Assembly (NCBI GenBank): GCA_001664505.1
Contig: CP011806.1
Location: 1,861,317 to 1,895,498 of the forward strand
DNA length: 34,182 bases
From: Acidobacteria bacterium Mor1
GTDB taxonomy: Bacteria > Acidobacteriota > Polarisedimenticolia > Polarisedimenticolales > Polarisedimenticolaceae
Reading direction: 5' to 3'
The notes beneath the pieces were generated by a model. The model did no database searches. It had not been told where the DNA came from and saw nothing but the letters and a program-made list of their open reading frames with translations. The first letter of the stretch is position 1. Each line of letters begins with the position of its first letter. Below, in pieces: positions 1,133 to 33,962 of the stretch. The position numbers and the translations under genes were made by a program.

Positions 1133-1302
1133 ATCTAGGGTTTCGTCGTGCCGGGTTGCGAAGCGTTACGGCCTGACGCCGGAAAATCGCAACGAGTTCG
1201 TTTTTTCCTTCCGCCTGCCGTTTTCTCGCCCTGAACTTGCCGCTTTTGCCTTCCGATTCCGTGTCCCATGTCGATCGGCAAGCACGACGATCAGCGAGCA
1301 CA

Positions 1303-1355
1303 GCAAGCAAATACCCCGTTTCCACGGGGCATCCTGGCCGGCCGGGCCTGCTTGT
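1303..1355 (+). promoter_or_regulatory. Three-way-junction-like 5' leader abutting the Shine-Dalgarno
   Basis: GCAAGCA (1303-1309) pairs with TGCTTGT (1349-1355, one G-U), enclosing two hairpins: CCCCGT/ACGGGG (1314-1319 with 1324-1329, TTCC loop) and CCTGG/CCGGG (1333-1337 with 1342-1346, CCGG loop). The outer helix ends one base before the GGAGG (1356-1360) of the metalloprotease gene, so its formation or opening could affect ribosome access. This is a hand-drawn fold without covariation support. Confidence 0.4.
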
Positions 1356-1365
1356 GGAGGACACG

Positions 1366-4300
1366 ATGAACAACAACAGACCGATCGCGACAAGTTCGAT
1401 CGCGCCAGGATCGATCGCGCCAGGATCGGCTCCGGTGCGGACCTTGCTGACCTGCCTGGTGTGGCTGGCCTGCCTGGTTGCCGCCGCACCGGCGCTGGCT
1501 CAGGTCGACCCCGAGCTCAGCCTTTCCCGAAACCCCGGGGATGACGCGGTCCAGCTCAGCTGGACCGGGGGCGCTCCGACCTTTGAGGTCTATCGCTCCT
1601 CGGATGCTTCCGACGTGATCACCCCCGGCAATCGTCTCGGCGAGGTCCAGGGCTACGGATTCAATGACCAGCCCCCCGTCGGCGAAATCTTCTTCTATCG
1701 AATTCAATCCCGCTCGGACTGCCTGCGCCCGATCGGCGACACCGCCGCCCGGCAGTCCCAGCCGGCTCAGAACTTCGGCAACGACCCATCCCTCTTCGCG
1801 GGAGACGACGGCAAGGATCGGACCTACCTGAAGTTCTCGCTTGACGGGATCCCGGCCGACGCCATCGTCGACAAGGCCACCCTGATCCTGCAGCAGACGT
1901 CCCTCACTCAGGGGAACCCGTTCGAGATCTACAGTGCGGTGGAAGCCTGGGCCGAGGACGCCCTGACCTGGAACGACCAGCCGAATCTGGGCTCTCTCTA
2001 CGCCGTCGAGAGTCAGGCGGCAGGGAGCGGAGCGCGGAGCTGGGATGTGGCCGGACTGGTCGATGACTGGCTGTCGGGATCGACGCCGAACCACGGATTG
2101 GTGGTAATCGCCAACGGTAACCTGGCGGAGTACACCTCCCGCGAAACCGACGAGACCTCGGTGCCGCGGCTCTGCGTGCAGTGGCGGGACCCGGTCGAGG
2201 ACGCCCTGCTCAACCTGGAACAACAGTCTCCCGAAGGGGTCCGCTCCCGCTTCGGCGCAGCCACGGTCGAAACCCTCGACGTGCAGGTACCGGCCAGCTC
2301 CGGCGACCCGGTGGATGCCGCCCTTCAGTACCTTCAGGACAACCGCATCCTGTTCGGCATCGAGAGCGCCTGGGTCGATCTGTTCCTCGACCGCATCCGC
2401 GAGTGGGACGGCATGACCGCCGTGGCGTTCGGCCGCAGGGTCCAGAACATTCCCGTGCTGGACGAGACCCTGATCGTCTTCGTCGCCGACGGCACGGTCT
2501 GGGGTTCCTCGAGCCGGCTGCGCGACGACCGGACCTTCGAGGGGCAGGTGCGGATCACCCCCGAACAGGCGCGGCAGTTCGCGCTCAACGAGCTCTCGGG
2601 GGAATACCCCAACGTGCGCACTCTCGGGGCGCCGCGACCCTACTGGGTTCCGCTCAACGAAGACGATCCGGAGCCCGAGGTCGCCTTCTGGGTGCCGGTC
2701 TCCGGCCTTTCGACCAACGGTGATCTGCCGCTCAACGGGGCGGCCTTCATCGATGCCGAGAGCGGAGCGTTGCTGCGGATGGTCGACATGGTCCACGAGG
2801 CGGCCGAGAACTTCCAGGTGCGCGACGCCGAGAACGAATCCAGCGACACCTGCTGGCTCTTCCCCTGGGAGAACAAGCCGATCTGGTTCGACGAGGACGG
2901 TCCGCTGCCGGCCTACCCGGGGCAGCCGGCCGACCTGTTCGGCGACGGCCAGCGGGTCGCCGACGGGATCGACGACGTCTACGACCACTTCGTCGACAAC
3001 TTCGGCTGGCGCGGCATGAGTGGCCGGGGTGAGGGGTTCCGCGCCTACGTGCATTGGAACGACGTCGAGTTCAACAACGCCATGTACACCTCGTTCTGCA
3101 ACATCATGAGCTTCGGCGACGGCTGGACCGGGCTGGATATCATCGGCCACGAGTTCGGGCACGGCCTGGCGTTTCATGCGATCCCGCTGTTCTGGGAAGG
3201 CCAGCCCGCGGCCATCGGCGAGCACATCGGTGACTTCTTCGGCTCCCAGCTCGACGGCAACTGGCAGCTGGCCGAGGACCGCGCCGATGCCGACGCCCGC
3301 ACGATCCGGGACATGTCCAATCCCCCGCTGTTCAACGACTGCGAGGGCATGCCCGACCCGGACCACATGGATCTCGTCCGGCCGATGAGCTGCGACAAGG
3401 GTGGCGTGCACGCCATCAACGGCGTGCTGAACAAGGCGGCTTACCTGCTGACCGACGGAGACGCTCACCGGGGCATCGTGACCAGCGGCATCGGGCGTTT
3501 CAAGGCCGGCCAGCTGATCTTCTCGGTCATCGTCTCCCACACCCACCCCTGGTCCAACCTGCGGATGTTCGGCGAGGAGGCGGTGCGCGAAGCCCAGCGA
3601 TTCCTGCGTGACGGACTCCACGGGTTCACGGTGAACGACGTCTGCGACGTGATCAACGCCTATGCGGCAGTCGGCATCGGCGATCCGGACACCGATTGTG
3701 ACGGCGTGCCCAACGCCCCGGCCGATGACGGCGACGGAGACGGGATCCGCGACGGGTTGGACAACTGCCCCAACGTCAGCAACCGCACTCAGTTCGACCT
3801 CAACGGCGACGGCGAGGGAGATGCCTGCGACGGTGATGACGACGGAGACGGTGTACCCGACGACACCGACAACTGCCGCCGGCGAATCAACCCGGGGCAG
3901 GAGGACACCGACGGCGACGGAATCGGCAACGTCTGCGACGACGACGACCGGGATCGGGTGCTCGATCTCGACGACAACTGCCCGACCTCTTACAACCCGG
4001 ACCAGCGGGATTCCGACGGGGACGGCATGGGCGATGCCTGTGACGAGGATCCGGACAATGACGGAATCTTCCCGGCGGACAACTGCCCGCTGCACTTCAA
4101 CCCGTCCCAGAGCAACAGTGACGGTGACACCCTCGGGAACGCCTGCGACAACTGCCCCTTCGACACCAACGAGGACCAGGCGGACATGGACCGGGATGGC
4201 GAAGGGGATGAGTGCGACAACGACCGGGACGGCGACGGCGTGCCCAACGGCAGCGACAACTGTCCCGACGTGATCAACGCCGCCCAGTTCGACAACGACG

Positions 4301-4743
4301 GCGACGGTGTGGGGACCGCCTGTGACTCCGACGAGATGGCCTTCTTCAGCGGCCTCGCCGGGGCCCAGCAGCTGGCGCTGTTTCTCCAACACAACGACAT
4401 CGCCGAAGTCATGCGGCTTCGCGTCGAGCCCTGCAGCGTGTTGGACTGTCCCGGACGGCTGGGGCCGAATTTCAACACCAGCGTCACCCTGAGCGCCTTG
4501 AATCACGACTACGCGATGCGCATCGTCGACGATCGCGGCTTCGCCATCGCCGACGGGCTCTCCTTCCAGGGAGCCCCGGTGACCATGACGTTCAGCGTCG
4601 ATCACGAGTACTTCTACCAGGACGGCATCAGCGGGCTGGACTACGTCGGTCGCGAGTACTTCCTTGAGCTGATCGCCCCGCCGGGCAGCCAGGACGGGCA
4701 GATCCTCGAAGGGTTCATCGAGGTGAACAGCTCCCTGGATTGA
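1366..4743 (+). CDS. Secreted M4 (thermolysin-family) metalloprotease with DNRLRE-like and thrombospondin type-3 domains
   Basis: This is an exported zinc endopeptidase of 1125 residues. The start is ATG 1366, preceded by GGAGG at 1356-1360; the frame is open further upstream but lacks a ribosome site there. A signal peptide ends near ALAQ (about residue 43). A short FN3-like segment follows, then a DNRLRE-like domain (about 125-275: [27 protein letters not shown]). A prodomain-like FTP/PepSY region precedes the peptidase. Catalytic residues match thermolysin in spacing: H595-E596-x-x-H599, E619 as third zinc ligand 24 residues after H595, D623, and H682 in GGVH. Asp-rich TSP3 repeats (775-990; DxDGDGxxD and DNCP motifs) bind calcium in other proteins. 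The C-terminal ~135 residues are unassigned. It is probably surface-attached or released to degrade external protein. Confidence 0.93.
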
Positions 4744-8348: not shown

Positions 8349-8381
8349 AAAAAGGCCGGGGAGCGGAACACTCCCCGGCCT
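8349..8381 (-). terminator. Intrinsic terminator of the RHS gene
   Basis: Read on the minus strand, an 11-base-pair stem (8371-8381 with 8353-8363) and a 7-base loop are followed by TTTTT (8353-8349). It lies 65 bases beyond the RHS stop codon and ends that transcript before the YceI-domain gene. Confidence 0.9.
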
Positions 8382-8445
8382 CGTTTGTGGTCGTTTCTCG
8401 GGCGAATCAGGGCCCGATGGTCGTCAGATCCGCGTTGCCGCTAGA

Positions 8446-9345
8446 TCAACACCACCAACCCCACCAGGGCCACCACCAGCCCCACCAGAGCCTCCAGCCC
8501 CACCAGGGCCAGGTCCACCAGCCCCAGGACCAGATCCACCAGTGACCCCAGATCCAGACGCTGAACCAACCCCAGCCCCAGAGCCACCAGTTCCAGCCGA
8601 ACAGCCAGGACCACCAGCCCCACCAGTGCCAGGGCCAGAACCAGCCCCAGCCGAACCAGGTGCCCCAACCGAAGGGGCCCCACCACCAGTGGTGTCCGCC
8701 GATCCAGCCCCAGTGCCACCAGGACCACCAGCCCCACCACCACCAGGGGTTCCAGCCGAACCAGCCCCACCAGGCGCCCCAGCCGGCCCAGTTCCACCAG
8801 CCCCAGGGCCACCAGCACTTGACCCAGCCCCACCAGTTCCACCAGAAGCCGAGTCCGCTCCAACCCCAGTAGCCGTGCCACCAGAAGGGAGACCAGGTCC
8901 ACCAGCCGTTCCAGTGATAGGGATGCCAGGCCCACCAGGTGTTCCAGAAAGGCCACCAGCCGCACCAGCCGAACCAACCGCTACCGGGCCACCAGCCGAC
9001 CCAGGCGTTCCAGCCCCACCATGGCCACCAGCCGTTGATCAGGTTCCAGCCCCAGACCGGAAGCCAGGTACACCAGCCGAAGGCACCCCAGTAGGGCCAT
9101 ATGCCCCACCAGCCGTACCACGGTGCCCAGGCTCGCCAGCCCCACCAGCGGAAGGGTGCGTACCACCAGGTGACCCAGGGCTTCCAGACCCACCAGGAGG
9201 CGAAGGGTCCGCCGAACCAGACCCAGGGGCGCCACTGCCACCAACCCCAGGGACCGCCGAACCACCAGCAGGTGCGCCAGGCCCACCAGCCCATGTTCCA
9301 GGCACCCGGGTGCCACCACCAGCCCTTGCCCCACCAGAACGGGTT
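8446..9345 (-). repeat. Low-complexity tract encoding the Trp-rich tail
   Basis: The plus strand here is a degenerate run of CCACCAG-like words (CCACCAGCCCCACCAG), so the coding strand is G-rich with many TGG codons. The tract is open in several frames because the words lack stops, producing long shadow frames (Pro-rich on plus, Leu-rich on minus). It is an imperfect repeat rather than a fixed-unit minisatellite. I count fifteen GCTGGTGG octamers on the coding strand, which arise where GGC, CGC or TGC precedes TGG TGG. Confidence 0.85.
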
Positions 9346-12300
9346 CATCCCGAACCAGTTGAGCGGACAGGGAAAGAACATCGGCACGTTGTAGGCGCTA
9401 CCCATCGGGCCGATCAGCTGCCCCGGGATGAACCGCTGCATGTGACGGCCGAAACGTGGCGCGTACTTGGCGCCGCGGTTCTCGTAGAGCCTCGTCTCCG
9501 GATCCCAGAACTGCCCCATGTAGAGGAACGGGTTGCCGATGATGCTCTCGTCGGCACCGGTCGGCGTGTTTCCGGGATCTTCGAAGCGCGGCGTGCCCTC
9601 GGCGTCGTAGGTGATGCGCTCGACGATGGAGCCACCGCCGTCGGTGACCATCACGATGCTGCCGCGGACGTCGTCGTGGACGTAGTAGAAGTCGCCGGTG
9701 ATCAGGCTCTCGACACCGACCAGTTCGTTCTGCGCGCCGTAGAAGAAGCGCATGTCGGGCACGCCGGCGCCGAGGTTGTACTGCTCGATCAGACGGTCGC
9801 CGTCGTACACGTAGCGCGTATCGACCCCGGTGTTCAGGTCCCGCTTGACCACCCGGCGGTTGAGGGCGTCGTAGGCGTACTGGGCGATCGTGCTGCCCGA
9901 AACCTCGACCTCCACCAGCCGGTTGAACACGTCGTAGATGTACGTACGGTTGTCTTCGGTAACCATGTTGCCGTTGGCGTCGTGGCCCAGGTTCTGGCCG
10001 TCAGCCACCGGCGTGTTGCCGTCGTCACCGAAATCATCGGGGATTCCGTCGTCAAGGGACGGGTTGGGATCCCCGTACTGGTTCATCACGTTGGGCGTGT
10101 TGGCGAAAGGCGTGCCGTTGATGATCCGGCTGAGCCAATTGCCCACGTCGTCCAGGGTGTACTGGATGCTGGTGGGCGACGCCGTGCCTACATCCCGCTC
10201 GTAGCCGATCAGCCGGTAGGCGCTGTCGTACTCGAAGGCGTCGAACACGCCGGGGTTGTGCAAATCCCGGGACTCACGGGTGATGTTGCCCATGGCATCC
10301 AGGGAGTAGTCGAACCCGGCCTGGACGGCGTTCCCGGGGTCGTAGTGCCGTACCGCCCGCACCCGCTTGAGTCCGTCGTAGCCGATGTTGTTGATGCTCA
10401 ACGGGTCGAGATAGGACTTGCGGGTCCCGTTGCCGTGGAACCGTTGGGCGATCCGGTCGGGGAAGATCCGGTCGTAGTTGACCGAGAAGCCGCTGATCGG
10501 ATCCTGGATCCCGAAGATGTAGCCGAAGGGGTCGGCATTCACCTGGGGCGTCGTACCGCTGGGGTAGAAGCTCTGGGTGCGGTTGCCGTTCCCGTCGTAC
10601 TGGTGGCTCTGGGCGTAGAGGATGCCTCCGTTGAACTGGGAGCTCTCCTCGCGGATCCGGTTGAGGGAGTCGTAGATGAACTCGACTTCGGTGAAACCCG
10701 CCGGGGAATCCTCGGTGGCCAGCACCAGACGGTTCATGCCGTCGTAGTCGAAGGTCTGTTCAACCGGACGAACGTCCGGCCCGGGAGAGACGGCGCGGAG
10801 GATCGGGCGGTCGGCGACGTCGTAGTCGATGACCACCTGACTTCCGTTGGGGTCCCGGACCTCGACGACGTTGTCGTTGGCGTCGTACTCGTACTCGACC
10901 ATCAGCCCGTCCGCCTGAATGTCGCGGATCTTGCGGCCCAGGGTGTCGTACTCGTAGGTCGTCGGGTTCCCGTTGGGGTCGATCTGTTGCTGGATCGCAC
11001 CGTCGAGGTTGTACTCGGTCATGTACACGATGTTGCCGACCACGGCACCGCCGCCGGTGCCGCCGGCACGCATCACCCGGTCGATGCGGATGCGTCGATC
11101 GGTTGCATCGTAGGCATAGTCGATGGTGTTGCCGAGCTGGTCGGTCATCTCGAGCACGTTGTCCCGGCTGTCGTAGCGCAGGGACTTCTCGAAGCCGAGG
11201 TTGTCCCGCACCAGCAGCAGCCGGTTCAGCCGGTCGTACTCCATCTGATCGACGAAGGTCTCGACGCCCGCCGGCCCCGTGGTGTTCTCCAGCCGCTCGA
11301 CGACGTTGTTGTTGGCGTCGTAGACGAACTGAGTGGCGTGTGTGCCGGCGTCGACCTCGAAGACACGGCCGGCACCGTCGTAGTTGTAGTCCGTGGATGC
11401 GCCGCCGTCGTTGCCGGTGACGGTGCGCTGGCTCTTGCGGTCGTACTCGGTGATGACCTCGATGACGTTGTCGCCATCGAAGGATTCGTTGAGCGGAAGA
11501 CCACTGTTGTCGAGGACGTGCTGCCCCAGGTTGACCACCCGGCCGACCTCGTCGTACTGGTAGTCGGCCCTGTAGACCGTGACGCCGAAATCGACGACGG
11601 TCACCCGCGCGATGGTCTCGTCGGAGTTGTAGCGGACCTCGAACTGCGAGCGGCCGGGCACCACGTCCGAACGGACCCGGCGATCCATGCCGTCGTACTC
11701 GAACAGGAACGGATTGGCGCGGCCGTCCTCGTAGGTCACGAGGTTGCCGTTGGCGTCGTAGTCGTAGCGCTGGACCGACGATCCCGGCGGGCCCGTCGAG
11801 GCGTCCCGGTCATCGTCGCCGCGGCGGAGCTGGTAGATCAGTCCCCGCTCGTCGTAGCGCATGGTCTGGAATACGCCCAGTCCGTTGGCCTGACTCTCGG
11901 GCAGCTCGACGGCGATGCGCCGCTCCATGGCGTCGTAGAGGTATTCGGTCCGGGCGAAGACGCCACCACCGATCTCCTGCTCCATGGCGGTCATGTTGCC
12001 CAGCAGGTCGTACTCGAACAGGACGTCGATGAATCCGCCGCTGTTGGACAGGTCGCCGAGATCCTGGATCCGGCGCTCGACGATCTCACCCCGGGCGTTG
12101 TAGATCGTCTCGGAGACGTAGCCGTTCAACGGAGGCTCGGTGGCCAGGTTGATCGAGCGGGGTGACGTACCACCCCGCCGAACCGAGACGATCTGACCGG
12201 CCTGGTTGAGCTCGAACACCGTGCGGGTGCCGTTGCCGTCGACCGAGGCGGTGAGATTGCCGGTTGGGTCGTACTCGAAGTCGTTGACGATCTGCGCCGC

Positions 12301-14511
12301 CGCGGGATTGAGTCCGTTGGCCCGGCGCGCGATCTCCGCCGCGTTGAGGAACGGCGCGGGATCGTCGTCCAGTACCTTCAGGGACAGGTAGCCGCCGGTC
12401 GCCGCGTTCAGGACACGTCCGTCGAGCGGTACCGGTGAGGGGTTTCCGTCCCCGTCGGGGTCGCTCTCGGGGTGGTAGCGATAGGTACTGACCACGTTCT
12501 CGGGGTCGATCTCGATTTCGAGCTGCCCGAGAGCGTTGTAGCGGTAGCGGGTCTCGATCGTTTGGAACGGCGCGCCCTCGATCGCCTGCTGGCGACCGCC
12601 GGGGAGCAGCGTGGCGTTGGGCTGACGCAGCAGGATCGGGTTGCCGAAGTTCTGCTGATCGGTGCCGTCGCCGTTGAGATCGCCCAGGAACAGCGGAACA
12701 CCGCCGAGGCTGATGTTCCAGTCGGCGACCTGATCATTGACGCCGTTAAGGTTGGGGTCCCCTTCCTGCCAGTCGAAGAAGTACTCGGTCGTCTGGCCGG
12801 CCGGGTCGATGATCACCCGCTGTTGGTTGTAGAGGGTCTCGTACTCGTAGTTGACGACCACGTCGGCGAGGCCGCCGCCGAAGCCGTCACCCCGCACCGG
12901 GTCGGCGACCCGGCGAACACCCAGCAGGTTGCCTCGCTGGAAGCGGTCCGGGTTCCCGGTGTCGTAGAGAAATTCGACGAAGTTGCCCATTGGGAACAGC
13001 GTCGAGAGCCGCTCGCCGGTTGGCTCGTAGTGGTGCTGGGTCTCGAAAAACGGTGGGTCGGTCGGACGGATGCCGATAGTCAGCACCCGCTCGACGGCGA
13101 CCTGCCCGTCAAGGGTGAACTCGTACTCAGTGGGTACGCCGTTGCGGTCGATCAACTGCAGTTGACGCGGACCACCCGGCTTGTTCAGGGCGTACTGATA
13201 GGTCCCGCCTGCGCCTCCGGCGCTGCCGAAGTCCTGCTCGAAGACCTCGTCGTCTGCGTTGTACTGGTTGACAAGGTAGGGGTTGGCGTCACCCGGAGCC
13301 GTGATCGAGACCAGGTTGTGGTCAAGACGCGAGTCGCCGGTGTTGTTGGTGTAGGTGAACCTGGTCGTGCGGCCCGACGGGAAGTCGTTGCCGGTCGAGG
13401 TGCCGGTGATGGCCGGGGTGGTGACCGTTTGGAGGTCCCCTTCGGCACCGTCGGCGGTACTGCCGTCGTAGTACGTGTAGCGCACCTGACGGCCGGCAAA
13501 GTCCTCGACCATCGCGAGACGGCCGGTGGCATCCCAGTAGTAGCTGATGGTGCGGCCGAGGGTGTCGACGACGTTACAGAGCAGCCCGTCCGGGTGGTAG
13601 ATGAAGGACAGGAAATTGCCGCTGCGGTCCCGGATCTCCAGCAGGCGGCCCTCGAGGGGGGTGCCGTCGAAGCTCTGGTAGCGGTACTCGGTGCCGTCTC
13701 GGTCTCGCAGGATAAAGTTCCCGCTGACCGGGTCCTGGCGGATCTTGTTGTAGATGCCGGCCTCTACCGGCTCCCACTGGGCGCCGACGTTGATGTAGTC
13801 ATCCTGGCGGCCGGTGCCGTCCAGATGGATCAACCCGCCGCCTCCGGAGATCAATCGCCGGTCGTAGTTGAAGGTCCAGTTGTAACCTTGCTGGCCGTCA
13901 TGGTTGATCTGGCTTCGGTAGAAACGGACATGGCGGAAGCTGATCCCGCGACCGGGGATCTCCATATCGGTCTGCTGCAGGAAGAACTCCCCCGTATGCA
14001 GGTAGATACCGCCGCCGGCCAGGTTGTTGACCTCGTTGGCCACGGCCGGGTTTCTCGGTGGCTCGATGCCCTGGATCTGCCCATCGACGTCGGGGCCGTT
14101 GGGGTTGATCGTGTCGAGCAGCGGCGCGGGGAGCGTTGCGCAGGGGTTCACGTTCGGACGGTTGCCACCGCCCGAATCGACCCCGAAAATGCTCTCGCTG
14201 ACCCCCTTGGTGCCGACGGCCAGGTATGTAAACACCTGACCGGGCGCAGGATCGGGCGACAGGTCGCTGAAGCTGTTGGTCGGTAGCCCGACCGCGAAAC
14301 AACTGCCGTAGTCGGCAGGCAGAGTGGCCACGGAACCGCGATAAATGTTGTAGCCGTCCACTCCGGGAATTGCGTCCCAGTCGAGATCGGTCTTCGACTG
14401 GAACTGCAGATTCTGCACCTCGGGGACGGCGCCGGAAGGGAGAGCAAACGCAGGAAGTGCCAGACACAGCACCCCCAGCGACAACATCCACAGACGGATG
14501 GTTCGCGTCAT
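8446..14511 (-). CDS. Secreted RHS/YD-repeat protein with a tryptophan-rich C-terminal tail
   Basis: This 2021-residue protein starts at ATG 14511 with AGGAGG four bases upstream (14516-14521). A signal peptide (to about residue 23, ALPAFA) and an FN3-like segment (VDGYNIYRG) lead to an RHS N-terminal region (GIYLHTGEFFLQQTDMEI, about 170-200). A long array of YD repeats follows (YDANGNLV, YDTLGRKI, YDGMNRLV). An RHS core-like region spans about 1605-1702 (YYVHDDVRGS, MGQFWDPETRLYENRGAKY). RHS shells normally end at a DPxG-type autocleavage motif and then a variable toxin. Here that point reads RFIPGQLIGPMG, with no DPxG. From N1723 on come 299 residues made mainly of Trp, Gly, Pro, Phe and Asn (about 127 Trp, no Asp or Glu, 3 Lys, 5 Arg). 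In this frame Phe is almost always TTC and Asn always AAC, as in the rest of the gene, supporting real translation. No immunity gene is recognisable downstream. Confidence 0.9.
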   Translation of the reverse strand: MTRTIRLWMLSLGVLCLALPAFALPSGAVPEVQNLQFQSKTDLDWDAIPGVDGYNIYRGSVATLPADYGSCFAVGLPTNSFSDLSPDPAPGQVFTYLAVGTKGVSESIFGVDSGGGNRPNVNPCATLPAPLLDTINPNGPDVDGQIQGIEPPRNPAVANEVNNLAGGGIYLHTGEFFLQQTDMEIPGRGISFRHVRFYRSQINHDGQQGYNWTFNYDRRLISGGGGLIHLDGTGRQDDYINVGAQWEPVEAGIYNKIRQDPVSGNFILRDRDGTEYRYQSFDGTPLEGRLLEIRDRSGNFLSFIYHPDGLLCNVVDTLGRTISYYWDATGRLAMVEDFAGRQVRYTYYDGSTADGAEGDLQTVTTPAITGTSTGNDFPSGRTTRFTYTNNTGDSRLDHNLVSITAPGDANPYLVNQYNADDEVFEQDFGSAGGAGGTYQYALNKPGGPRQLQLIDRNGVPTEYEFTLDGQVAVERVLTIGIRPTDPPFFETQHHYEPTGERLSTLFPMGNFVEFLYDTGNPDRFQRGNLLGVRRVADPVRGDGFGGGLADVVVNYEYETLYNQQRVIIDPAGQTTEYFFDWQEGDPNLNGVNDQVADWNISLGGVPLFLGDLNGDGTDQQNFGNPILLRQPNATLLPGGRQQAIEGAPFQTIETRYRYNALGQLEIEIDPENVVSTYRYHPESDPDGDGNPSPVPLDGRVLNAATGGYLSLKVLDDDPAPFLNAAEIARRANGLNPAAAQIVNDFEYDPTGNLTASVDGNGTRTVFELNQAGQIVSVRRGGTSPRSINLATEPPLNGYVSETIYNARGEIVERRIQDLGDLSNSGGFIDVLFEYDLLGNMTAMEQEIGGGVFARTEYLYDAMERRIAVELPESQANGLGVFQTMRYDERGLIYQLRRGDDDRDASTGPPGSSVQRYDYDANGNLVTYEDGRANPFLFEYDGMDRRVRSDVVPGRSQFEVRYNSDETIARVTVVDFGVTVYRADYQYDEVGRVVNLGQHVLDNSGLPLNESFDGDNVIEVITEYDRKSQRTVTGNDGGASTDYNYDGAGRVFEVDAGTHATQFVYDANNNVVERLENTTGPAGVETFVDQMEYDRLNRLLLVRDNLGFEKSLRYDSRDNVLEMTDQLGNTIDYAYDATDRRIRIDRVMRAGGTGGGAVVGNIVYMTEYNLDGAIQQQIDPNGNPTTYEYDTLGRKIRDIQADGLMVEYEYDANDNVVEVRDPNGSQVVIDYDVADRPILRAVSPGPDVRPVEQTFDYDGMNRLVLATEDSPAGFTEVEFIYDSLNRIREESSQFNGGILYAQSHQYDGNGNRTQSFYPSGTTPQVNADPFGYIFGIQDPISGFSVNYDRIFPDRIAQRFHGNGTRKSYLDPLSINNIGYDGLKRVRAVRHYDPGNAVQAGFDYSLDAMGNITRESRDLHNPGVFDAFEYDSAYRLIGYERDVGTASPTSIQYTLDDVGNWLSRIINGTPFANTPNVMNQYGDPNPSLDDGIPDDFGDDGNTPVADGQNLGHDANGNMVTEDNRTYIYDVFNRLVEVEVSGSTIAQYAYDALNRRVVKRDLNTGVDTRYVYDGDRLIEQYNLGAGVPDMRFFYGAQNELVGVESLITGDFYYVHDDVRGSIVMVTDGGGSIVERITYDAEGTPRFEDPGNTPTGADESIIGNPFLYMGQFWDPETRLYENRGAKYAPRFGRHMQRFIPGQLIGPMGSAYNVPMFFPCPLNWFGMNPFWWGKGWWWHPGAWNMGWWAWRTCWWFGGPWGWWQWRPWVWFGGPFASWWVWKPWVTWWYAPFRWWGWRAWAPWYGWWGIWPYWGAFGWCTWLPVWGWNLINGWWPWWGWNAWVGWWPGSGWFGWCGWWPFWNTWWAWHPYHWNGWWTWSPFWWHGYWGWSGLGFWWNWWGWVKCWWPWGWWNWAGWGAWWGWFGWNPWWWWGWWSWWHWGWIGGHHWWWGPFGWGTWFGWGWFWPWHWWGWWSWLFGWNWWLWGWGWFSVWIWGHWWIWSWGWWTWPWWGWRLWWGWWWPWWGWWC

Positions 14512-14615
14512 GCGTCCTCCTGGGACTCAAAGCTGTACAGGCCGGGCAGGTGTGACGGAATGATTTGGTCGGTGCTATACCGGGGGCGTTACAGATTCGA
14601 GATTAAAAATTAGAG

Positions 14616-15590: not shown

Positions 15591-16958
15591 TCACCCGAGC
15601 GGATGGCTCTCCGGGCCTGCCTCGGTCGCGCCGTTCTGAGGAGGTTCAGGGGTACGCTCAGAGTCTGCGCCTGCAGACTCCTCGAAACTGACGCCTTCTT
15701 CGCCATGCCCCACACTACCTCCTGCCCCAGCGATCCAGACCGGAAGTCGGAATGCGGCGGCATCGTCGTCGTGCGAGGAGTCGCGGCCGCTGACCGCTGG
15801 GGTCCACCTCAAACCCTGAGTCCCTCCCTCGGCGACCCTACCCTGGACCCGAAGAAGACCTGAGTGAATCAGCGCGTGACAGGTTCTGCACACCGCTACC
15901 TCGTTGGACATTGACGTTTCGCCTCCCTTCGAACGGAAGACGATATGGTGACAGTGCTCCGCCCGCCTGCTACATCGTGGATTCCCGCATCGGTGCAACT
16001 CCCGCCCCAGGATCTTCCGTCGCATGGGAGCCGGCGTCGGCCCGTCAATCGCAACGATCTCCGCATCTCCCAACCGTCGTTCGACGACCTCCGGCTCCAC
16101 CTCGACCATCCCGTCGCGGGTTCCCATTGTTGAACGACGACAGCGCGGGCAGTGCTGATAGATGACCTTCGCCCGACTCCGGAGTGTGGCTCGAGAATTC
16201 GCCGACGCTGCCAGCCCATTCTCACCGCTCGGACCTTTGGCTGAGTCCCGATGGCCGGCTTCGGCAGGCCCACCGGACTCGTGCTGCTCAGAAAGGAACA
16301 ACAGAACGTCCTCAGCCCTGAGCTCTGCGGCCCCTGTCTTCCGCTGAATCTGCTGGCCCACGGCCTCCAGCCACCTTCGAACTTTCTCCATATCCGACCG
16401 CTGAAAGCGAAGAACCATCCGCTGGTGCAGGTTCGGCAGGCCAAAGCCATCTCTCCGAGGAGCGTCTCGCCCGGCTCGATGCGCCTCCCGCGCCTCGGCA
16501 ACCGTCTGCTCCGCGCCGCGCTCCGCGAGGAACTCCAGCCACTTCGCCTCGGATGCCGGCTTTGCCGCACGAGTTACCGCCTTGAGGACCGACCAACTGA
16601 TTCGCCCCCGTGCGAACGACTTCTTGAGCGCCGGCAACTGCAGCAAGGACCGACTCACCCGCAAATACTCGAAGCACTCGGCCCGTCGCAGATGTAGGTT
16701 GGATTCGGCATAGGATGCGATCGAGGAGAACCCCAGCTCCAGGTACCCCGCAGATTCATCGAGGGATCGCATCGCTTCGCAAAGGGCGAGCCGCCCCCGA
16801 TTGCCTACACGAAGCGCCTTGAGAGCGAGCCCGTGCAGCACCCTCGGAGCGATCCGAACGACCTTGCTCGACTTAGAGGTCTTCTCGGTAGAGGGCACCT
16901 CATCGGCAGAAGACGCAACCCTCGAGTCAGCCTGCTCTACGACTTCAGACACTTCCAT
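15591..16958 (-). CDS. HNH endonuclease-domain protein
   Basis: This 455-residue protein resembles stand-alone HNH nucleases with a helical N-terminal region, which occur in several copies in some genomes. The ATG at 16958 has GGAGG four bases upstream. A helical domain spans ~40-225 (SLDESAGYLELGFSSIASYAE, and ISWSVLKAVTRAA). A CPRC pair lies at 270-273. The HNH module has Cys pairs C324/C329 and C357/C360, HHI at 337-339, N352 and H361, so the key residues are intact. Target and role are unknown; phage defence, mobile DNA or repair are all possible. The C-terminal ~70 residues are low-complexity and contain SAGADS (about 428-433), encoded by the palindrome at 15661-15680, which also occurs elsewhere in the window. 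Confidence 0.85.
   Translation of the reverse strand: MEVSEVVEQADSRVASSADEVPSTEKTSKSSKVVRIAPRVLHGLALKALRVGNRGRLALCEAMRSLDESAGYLELGFSSIASYAESNLHLRRAECFEYLRVSRSLLQLPALKKSFARGRISWSVLKAVTRAAKPASEAKWLEFLAERGAEQTVAEAREAHRAGRDAPRRDGFGLPNLHQRMVLRFQRSDMEKVRRWLEAVGQQIQRKTGAAELRAEDVLLFLSEQHESGGPAEAGHRDSAKGPSGENGLAASANSRATLRSRAKVIYQHCPRCRRSTMGTRDGMVEVEPEVVERRLGDAEIVAIDGPTPAPMRRKILGRELHRCGNPRCSRRAEHCHHIVFRSKGGETSMSNEVAVCRTCHALIHSGLLRVQGRVAEGGTQGLRWTPAVSGRDSSHDDDAAAFRLPVWIAGAGGSVGHGEEGVSFEESAGADSERTPEPPQNGATEAGPESHPLG
15661..15680. repeat. Palindromic element, copy in the HNH gene
   Basis: GAGTCTGC and GCAGACTC form 8-base arms around a 4-base centre (GCCT). On the minus strand it encodes SAGADS in the HNH protein tail. 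It matches the copy at 17299-17318 and the cluster at 27768-27847. Confidence 0.8.
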
Positions 16959-31835: not shown

Positions 31836-33962
31836 ATGAAGCGAGCTCTCTATCGAATGACCATCCTTCTGGGCACAGCTCTGCTGGGCGCGACCCTGCT
31901 GGCTGCGGCCGGCGCGGAGTCCGGAGGCAAGCCGCGTAAGAAGGCCCCGAAGAAGGCCACGCCGAAGCTGTTGGCCGCGATCCTCGGCGCCGAAGATCGC
32001 CGGGTGGTCGATGAGACCCTCGAGGCCTGCCTCGCCTCCCCCGACGCCGAGCTCCGTCGCCATGCGGCCCGGGCCATCGGCCGGATCGGCGGCGCCGGCG
32101 CCCTCGGACACCTGAGCGCTGCGGCAACCGACACCGATGCAGGCGTGCGGGCCCAGGCGGCCTTCGGGTTCGGCCTGATCGGTGGACAGGAGAGCCTCGA
32201 TCTGCTGGCGACGATGACCGAGGACAAGGACCCCGGTGTTCTGCTCGCGGTCGCTCGCGCCCTGGCGCTGTTCGACGAATCCGATGCCAACACGTGGCTA
32301 CTCAAGCTGCTGGAAAACCCGGACCCTGACGTCCTGACCGCGGCCTGCCTGACTGCCGGGCGGATGAATGCCCCGAATGACGCGGTCACCCCGCTGCTGC
32401 GGCACTCCAATTCGAAGAGTCCCGAGGTCCGTCTCGCCGCGATCTGGGCGCTTTCCCGCCTGGGTGCCGTGCGCACCGGCGCCTTCGGGGTGCTGGAGAC
32501 CTCGGGGGTGGAGCCGCGGATGCTGACCCAGATCCGCGCGCGGCTGGTCGAGCTGACCACCTCCCGGGACCCGCGGATCCGCGCCATGGCCGCCGCCGGC
32601 CTTTCGGCGCCGACGACCCGTACCGAGGTCAAGGCGATGACACCGCGGCTGACTGACCCGGACCGCATGGTGCGGGTCGCGACGATTCGCTCCTTCGGCT
32701 ACCCCAACGCGAAGATCTTTCCCTACCTCAGCAACTCCATCGAAGAGTCCGACCAGCATCTGGTCTGGGCCTCGATCGAGGCGTTGGGGCGGGTCGGACC
32801 GAGCGCGTCGGACCTGCTGGTCGACCGCATCATCAAGGCGCCGTCGAACTGGATCCGCGAGGAGGCGATCCGCTCCCTCAACCGGATCAACGCACCGCTG
32901 GCGGCCAAGACCGCCAACGGCGTCACCCAGGTCGATTCGGCCCGGCTGCGAGCCGCGGCGGCGATCCCGCTGTCGGCGGTGGACACCGAGCTCAGCCGGG
33001 AGATCGCCGAGCGGCTGCGCAAGGACCCGTCGCCCCAGGTACGGGCGATGCTCCCCGGCGCGCTGCTCGACCTGGAAGATTCCATGCAGGAAGCCCTGGC
33101 CGACCTGATCGCCGACCCGTCTCCCCGGGTCCGCGCCGCCGTCGCCGCCACCGCCGGGCGCCGCATGTGGGGCATCGACAGCAACGAGGAAACGGTACGC
33201 GACGCCCTCGCCACCCTGGACCGGCTGTGGAAGGAGAGCCTCGACGATCCGCTCCCCCGGGTGCGGTTCGAGGTGCTGAACGCGGCGCGTCGTCTCGGTA
33301 AGGACGACCGCGGCCGCAAGTACGTCGACCTGGGCCTGGCCGATCCGGACCGCCGGGTGCGCATCCGCGCCGCGAAGCAACTCGAGGAGGTCTTCGGCGA
33401 AACGGCTACGGTCGAGATGGCCGCCACCGATCTGGACGCCAAGACCTACCGGGAGATCCTGCGCTGGGCCTCGGAACCCCGGGCCGCGGTGGTGCAGATC
33501 CGCCGCGAAGGCTTCCGCCCCGGACGCTTCACCATCCGCTTCGACCTGGAACATGCCCCGATCACCAGTTGGCAGTTTGCCCAGCGGGCCGAGCAGGGAC
33601 TCTACGACGGCCTCGAGGTCAGCCGGGTGATCCCCGGCGAGCTGCTACAGGTCGATGTTCCGATCGACGGTGACCGCGCCGGAATCGAGCCGCTGCGCGA
33701 CGAGCCCTCGATGCTCAGTTTCGGACCGGCGCGTCTGGGCATGGCCCGCAGCGGGCCGGACGAGAGCCTCGGATCCTGGTTCATCACCCTGGGGCCCCAG
33801 TGGCACCTGGACGGCCGGTACACCGCGTTTGCCCACGTGGTCCAGAACTACCTGGGTGTGACGACGCTGATGTATCCGGGGGACCGGATCGAGAAGATCG
33901 AGATCTACCAGGGTGACGGCAGCGAACCGCTCAAACCGCTGCCGGCGGAGAAGGCGAAGTAG
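31836..33962 (+). CDS. Exported HEAT-repeat protein with C-terminal cyclophilin-like domain
   Basis: This 708-residue protein has a signal peptide (to about residue 28, LLAAAGAESGG), a basic linker (KPRKKAPKKATPK), HEAT-like helical repeats over ~45-545 (HAARAIGRIGGAGALGHL, RAQAAFGFGLIG, RVRIRAAKQLEEVFG) and a cyclophilin-type peptidyl-prolyl isomerase domain over ~550-700 (DLEHAPITSWQF, GLEVSRVIPGELLQ, LGMARSGPDESLGSWFITLGP, WHLDGRYTAFAHVV). The catalytic Arg is kept (R597 in VSRVIPG), but the neighbouring Phe of the usual RVIPGFMxQ is Glu, the Gln of GSQFF is Trp and the His of LDGKHVVFG is Tyr. Activity may be weak or the fold may serve as a binding domain. A periplasmic folding role with HEAT-mediated client binding is inferred. 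The promoter at 31800-31828 suggests leaderless expression. Confidence 0.9.
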   Translation: MKRALYRMTILLGTALLGATLLAAAGAESGGKPRKKAPKKATPKLLAAILGAEDRRVVDETLEACLASPDAELRRHAARAIGRIGGAGALGHLSAAATDTDAGVRAQAAFGFGLIGGQESLDLLATMTEDKDPGVLLAVARALALFDESDANTWLLKLLENPDPDVLTAACLTAGRMNAPNDAVTPLLRHSNSKSPEVRLAAIWALSRLGAVRTGAFGVLETSGVEPRMLTQIRARLVELTTSRDPRIRAMAAAGLSAPTTRTEVKAMTPRLTDPDRMVRVATIRSFGYPNAKIFPYLSNSIEESDQHLVWASIEALGRVGPSASDLLVDRIIKAPSNWIREEAIRSLNRINAPLAAKTANGVTQVDSARLRAAAAIPLSAVDTELSREIAERLRKDPSPQVRAMLPGALLDLEDSMQEALADLIADPSPRVRAAVAATAGRRMWGIDSNEETVRDALATLDRLWKESLDDPLPRVRFEVLNAARRLGKDDRGRKYVDLGLADPDRRVRIRAAKQLEEVFGETATVEMAATDLDAKTYREILRWASEPRAAVVQIRREGFRPGRFTIRFDLEHAPITSWQFAQRAEQGLYDGLEVSRVIPGELLQVDVPIDGDRAGIEPLRDEPSMLSFGPARLGMARSGPDESLGSWFITLGPQWHLDGRYTAFAHVVQNYLGVTTLMYPGDRIEKIEIYQGDGSEPLKPLPAEKAK

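Follow-up and report, generated by a model that had tools for sequence, protein, structure and literature searches.

A tryptophan-rich tail in the variable C-terminal slot of an RHS shell protein from Acidobacteria bacterium Mor1

The stretch of DNA analysed here (the window) comprises 34,182 nucleotides (nt) of Acidobacteria bacterium Mor1 (assembly GCA_001664505.1, contig CP011806.1, positions 1,861,317-1,895,498 of the forward strand). It carries on its minus strand a gene for an RHS/YD-repeat protein of 2021 amino acids that ends in a 299-residue tail unusually rich in tryptophan (Trp, W). The gene and its elements are listed below in window coordinates.

14516-14521, minus strand: Shine-Dalgarno sequence AGGAGG, 4 nt 5' of the ATG (read from the upstream sequence)
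8446-14511, minus strand: RHS/YD-repeat protein gene, 2021 amino acids (open reading frame, Pfam, NCBIfam, PDB relatives)
14443-14511, minus strand: probable Sec signal peptide MTRTIRLWMLSLGVLCLALPAFA (translation, by eye)
14131-14406, minus strand: fibronectin type III-like N-terminal domain, residues ~36-127 (weak own-genome matches)
9418-14019, minus strand: YD/RHS shell, residues ~165-1698 (blastp collinearity with homologues in the class; PDB Rhs matches to residue 1696)
9346-9444, minus strand: degenerate C-terminal plug, residues 1690-1722 (partial TIGR03696 match; DPxG...DPxG aspartyl protease motif absent)
8446-9345, minus strand: Trp-rich tail, residues 1723-2021 and stop codon, 127 W in 299 (translation and counts)
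8352-8382, minus strand: intrinsic-terminator-like hairpin of 14 pairs with a TTTTT tail, ~64 nt 3' of the stop codon (scan)

The open reading frame contains YD/RHS repeats recognised by both Pfam (RHS_repeat PF05593, 2e-38) and NCBIfam (YD_repeat_2x, 6e-32), and a PDB search with the shell returns Rhs effectors, Tse5 and bacterial teneurin-like proteins as its solved relatives. By sequence the product is an Rhs/YD-repeat protein, the tandem YD repeats of which are predicted to form a shell. The N-terminus has the typical n-h-c pattern, as judged by eye on the translation, and the protein is probably exported via Sec. Residues ~30-130 weakly match some 30 places in the genome, in many other proteins, and no Pfam domain is called there. 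At the other end of the shell, TIGR03696 covers the plug over positions 12-48 of 76 only, below cut-off. Neither the shell end nor the plug holds the aspartyl protease motif (DPXGX18DPXG), and ahead of the tail the D[PA]xG pattern occurs for the last time as DAEG, at residue 1640.

The tail continues in frame from the shell, with no stop or frame break between them. Its 299 residues include 127 Trp (42.5%), as against 10 Trp in the preceding 1722 residues. G (51), P (21), F (16), N (11), A (11) and H (9) follow, with 5 R, 3 K and neither D nor E. A preliminary description of this DNA had reported the open frame, the Trp count from N1723 to the stop, the absence of acidic residues, the number of K and R and the extent of the segment including its stop codon, and translation reproduces each of these exactly. 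It had also called the tail cationic, which is correct in sign, but the charge is weak (8 K+R in 299 residues, isoelectric point (pI) 9.7, predicted mass 40.3 kDa). In an 800 kb sample of the genome, with 383 putative genes, Trp makes up 1.45% of codons, and the richest 299-residue window in 260 other genes contains 16 W. The Trp tail is not an artefact of counting or translation. On the Wimley-White interfacial scale it sums to -236 kcal/mol, compared with a minimum of -28 in any window of that length in 260 other genes.

Trp density increases from 17 to 27 per 50 residues along the segment, and Trp occurs in runs of one (52), two (31), three (3) and four (1). The doublet WW is enriched (31 against 18 expected), as is GW (33 against 22), whereas WWW is depleted more than fourfold relative to shuffles (5 against 22). 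No tandem period is present, self-identity at the best lag being 0.284 as compared with 0.285 in shuffles, and Tandem Repeats Finder (TRF) reports only short, poor and degenerate arrays with repeats of 9-45 bp.

The segment occupies a slot that differs in content among RHS homologues of the class. Genomes of the class (n=41) and phylum (n=396), none from the same genus as the source, were used for comparison. Homologues in the class align collinearly at 27-33% identity over up to 1857 blastp columns, which is most of the shell, and two such shell homologues lie in the Mor1 genome itself. Like the Mor1 protein, these collinear homologues are probably exported via Sec. Their tails are unrelated to the Trp tail and to most of one another. 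One of the proteins encoded in Mor1 (L044, 4352591-4356952, minus strand, 2172 amino acids) has its tail slot filled by a 41-residue repeat (GGDYNSSRSNRTHTP...GGGGHDVIYIFGGTRGRAP) that is present about six times, and another in the class (G025 C138, L237) carries KFKAGSELADKVKSA-type repeats, with a related motif in G018 C73 (L233). The motif shared by these last two tails, KFKAGxxLADxVKxA, is repeated many times in G025. Other tails in the same slot are Gly- or Pro-rich mixtures, including the Pro-rich or mixed tails of G037 and G029. In a survey of 26 RHS C-termini, the best 60 residues of the Mor1 tail hold 33 W and those of all others at most 6. The sequences bear out the earlier proposal that the Trp tail sits in the variable C-terminal slot of an RHS shell protein, sister shells ending in other tails. 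As read from these alignments, the slot in this class holds lineage-specific and often repetitive segments. The RHS proteins of the class that show such tail turnover lack the DPxG aspartates at the shell end, which others in the class (G003, G019) keep. In the Mor1 genome the non-cleaving RHS proteins coexist with three others (5533893, 1395314 and 1931700) in which the Rhs_assc_core match is intact.

Ordered homologues of the tail were found neither elsewhere in the genome nor in the class and phylum genomes, plasmids, phages, PDB or IMG/VR, and a tail search of GTDB contigs gave 29 raw pattern matches, none of which was confirmed. Default phmmer and tblastn miss even shuffled copies of the tail, as composition is discounted, so their negatives exclude ordered relatives only. 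A composition-sensitive, variable-gap DNA pattern, which catches 93% of shuffles of the same composition, gave four matches outside the Mor1 genome among the phylum genomes, none Trp-rich over any length. In IMG/VR the pattern matched many times. Among the matches listed, those examined resemble Gly-rich proteins read out of frame and contain R, C and S beside W, unlike the Mor1 tail. With the shell as query, a GTDB scan recovered RHS proteins of Clostridia, Verrucomicrobia and Lachnospiraceae and no others, all of them distant. Past the end of the shell neither Pfam nor NCBIfam gives any match, so that no known toxin domain is recognised there, and the PDB has no match to the tail. Literature searches did not find a Trp-rich RHS tail, and the preliminary statement that no RHS effector class of such composition is described agrees with our search of Pfam, PDB and the literature, which found none.

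The frame in which the tail is read as Trp-rich looks like the frame in which it is maintained as protein-coding sequence, as judged from codon choice. The third-base habit noted previously for the non-Trp codons is real (TTC 16/16, AAC 11/11, GTC 7/7, ACC 7/7), and in a six-frame test of synonymous choices against codon usage sampled from the genome this frame fits with z 0.2. The 800 kb sample shows a strong context effect, in which codons of various amino acids that precede TGG tend to end in C and avoid a final G; proline, for example, is CCC before TGG in 79% of cases as opposed to 40% elsewhere. This context is a sensitive test of true coding in Trp-rich sequence. Under the corresponding model the tail has a log-likelihood of -115.9, where -120.7 +/- 10 is expected and context-free draws give -158. 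Among the NNC codons of the tail the choice of first and of second base is strongly linked (chi2 84.7, p 2e-14), GGC, TTC, CCC and AAC being frequent while GAC is absent (0/134). Such dependence points to amino-acid choice in the Trp frame, since synonymous drift in another frame would not predict it; read in the +1 frame, it would tie a silent Gly third base to the next codon, which is inexplicable.

These tests bear directly on whether the signal belongs to another frame or to the nucleic acid itself, which we regard as very improbable. A Gly/Ala/Pro/Ser reading exists in the +1 frame and a Leu/Val-rich one in +2, and an antisense Pro-rich frame is open as part of a 1274-residue open reading frame on the plus strand, yet these fit genome codon usage with z -27, -6 and -35, respectively. 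The remaining two frames score 0.9, with five stops, and -12. One stop interrupts each of +1 and +2, and the antisense frame has a G+C content at third codon positions (GC3) of 37%. Coding in +1, +2 or the antisense Pro-rich frame was therefore rejected on codon-usage z, stops and antisense GC3. The coding strand is G-rich, G4Hunter exceeding 1.2 in 88 of 873 windows of the tail as against 2 in the shell, and GCTGGTGG, the E. coli Chi octamer, is present 15 times. However, the amino-acid sequence by itself predicts 13.2 +/- 2 copies of GCTGGTGG and 69.6 +/- 3.6 of CTGG (77 observed), and synonymous choices lower rather than raise the G-quadruplex (G4) potential (0.68 against 0.83 +/- 0.04 or 0.76 +/- 0.03 expected). 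Both a Chi-like array and a G4 element were rejected on these grounds. A more serious rival is that repeated duplication of short units containing TGG built up the tail, which then diverged in a tolerant slot, harmless and without specific function. The complete turnover of RHS tails in the class, some of them plain tandem repeats, is consistent with this, as are the degenerate 9-45 bp repeats and the presence of the tail in one genome only. Against it, no tandem period rises above shuffles, WWW runs are avoided, acidic residues are excluded and codon choice is equilibrated to genome context. Only 6 of the 172 non-Trp codons lie one substitution from TGG (GGG, CGG, TTG, TCG, TGA and TAG are all absent), and no stop has arisen despite 127 TGG codons, each one transition from TAG and from TGA. 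Trp is also the most costly amino acid to make. The rarity of TGG neighbours, the avoidance of WWW and the missing tandem period make a decayed (TGG)n tract formed by simple expansion unlikely, so that the neutral repeat expansion considered earlier is less supported in its simple form; the tail may have grown from short composite units, with long selection thereafter. We consider harmless drift unlikely overall, yet a low-complexity turnover slot without fixed function accounts almost equally well for the phylogenetic pattern and is a real rival to a functional tail.

The position of the tail behind an RHS shell invites comparison with Tse5; on this reading the Trp segment would be a membrane-active toxin that is encapsulated, can be released from the shell and inserts into a target membrane. 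Tse5 is among the PDB relatives of the shell, and the tail is hydrophobic and free of acidic residues. Hydrophobic, membrane-active C-termini of RHS-type shells are documented: the C-terminal toxin of Tse5 (Tse5-CT) is a pore former that inserts into lipid (PMC10684867), and a teneurin-like protein of B. inaquosorum has a C-terminus that makes E. coli permeable if it is exported (PMC13018210). In Rhs1, however, the second aspartate of the DPxG motif cuts the toxin free (PMC8636562). As the Mor1 protein lacks these aspartates, by analogy its tail probably remains attached to the shell. No immunity gene is evident next to it, the following gene on the same strand encoding a YceI-like protein beyond the terminator, and the sister tails in the class are repeat-like rather than toxin-like. 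With the protease motif missing and the sister tails swapped and repetitive, a releasable toxin is neither the only nor the most economical reading; it is possible and not favoured, and we rate it as rather improbable.

Our results instead lead us to favour, tentatively, a non-enzymatic aromatic tail that would bind membranes or other surfaces from an exported, non-cleaving RHS shell. Three observations together favour an attached non-enzymatic tail over a released toxin, namely the missing protease motif, the lack of an enzyme-like domain and the repetitive tails of the sister proteins. In such a model the gene yields a probably Sec-exported, non-cleaving RHS/YD shell, with an aromatic, low-complexity tail of 40 kDa in its C-terminal slot, where Trp stands singly or in pairs between Gly, Pro, Asn, Phe and other residues. 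Trp favours the bilayer interface, in keeping with the strongly negative Wimley-White sum, and the documented membrane-active C-termini of RHS-type shells count in favour of this reading as well. A membrane or surface role, as suggested earlier, is plausible. The tail may act without enzymatic activity as an interfacial sticker, its Trp side chains partitioning into the lipid headgroup region or stacking on glycans or aromatic polymers, so as to tether the exported shell to the surface it meets or to disturb that surface; a mere anchor and a permeabiliser both fall within this proposal. What the sequence shows directly is the composition, the coding signature of the frame, the lack of the protease motif and the variability of the slot; that the protein is exported, that the tail binds at an interface and that it stays on the shell are inferred. 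The narrower possibility of a new RHS C-terminal module, that is, a long Trp/Gly low-complexity domain under selection that acts physically through membrane insertion, disruption or adhesive self-assembly on a non-cleaving exported shell, is held with less confidence. Several points weigh against an interfacial tail. A segment of 42% Trp might block Sec export or aggregate, and the signal peptide was called by eye. No orthologue bearing a Trp-rich tail occurs among the class and phylum genomes compared, and the AlphaFold model of residues 1643-2021 has a mean predicted local distance difference test (pLDDT) score of 49 and is unusable. A membrane role is not transferable to the Trp tail from the sister tails, since those consist of hydrophilic repeats.

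Several known systems resemble the Mor1 protein in part. Rhs effectors such as Rhs1/Tre23, RhsA and Tse5 share a YD-repeat shell followed by a variable C-terminal segment, but they have a type VI secretion system N-terminus, where Mor1 has a probable Sec signal, and the DPxG autoprotease; unlike them, the Mor1 protein has no recognisable toxin domain and a tail of 42% Trp. The short Trp-rich antimicrobial peptides of the indolicidin group combine Trp with Pro or Gly and a weak positive charge and are thought to be active at the membrane interface. The Mor1 tail resembles them in composition only; it is not a short peptide but 299 residues of a 2021-residue protein, and its charge density is far lower. 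Bacterial teneurin-like proteins are marked by the combination of an FN-plug, an NHL propeller and a YD shell; the likeness seen here is one of sequence between the YD shell end and 9ifo and 9pt5. Many teneurin-like proteins have Sec signals and diverse C-termini, some of them membrane-active (PMC13018210); the characterised ones self-cleave, which the Mor1 protein probably does not, and the word 'tryptophan' appears nowhere in that paper. There is a further likeness to the repeat-tailed RHS proteins of the class (4352591, G025 C138 and G018 C73), which have a collinear shell at ~27-32% identity, no DPxG and, in the corresponding slot, sequence that is repetitive or of low complexity, although their tails are hydrophilic, Trp-poor and unrelated in sequence.

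Elsewhere in the window, the minus strand also encodes an HNH endonuclease-domain protein (15591-16958), upstream of the RHS gene. A large protein at 1237-4743 (plus) combines a thermolysin-type M4 peptidase with a CBM96 module and thrombospondin type 3 repeats and is likely a secreted protease, going by its domains. At 31836-33962 (plus) many HEAT repeats are fused to a cyclophilin-type prolyl isomerase domain, an unusual combination.

An RHS/YD shell without an autoprotease motif that ends in a Trp-rich C-terminus has no precedent in the libraries and literature searched. As a natural segment, 299 residues at 42% Trp lie far beyond the range of the sampled genome and match nothing in the libraries. 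If made and functional, the tail would provide the RHS fold with a payload or adhesive that is not an enzyme, and would be an aromatic sticker protein of extreme composition that occurs in nature. If non-functional, it would be a costly low-complexity tract that persists with equilibrated codon choice, useful to models of low-complexity evolution. The swapping of repeat tails among non-cleaving RHS proteins of the class is a separate lead.
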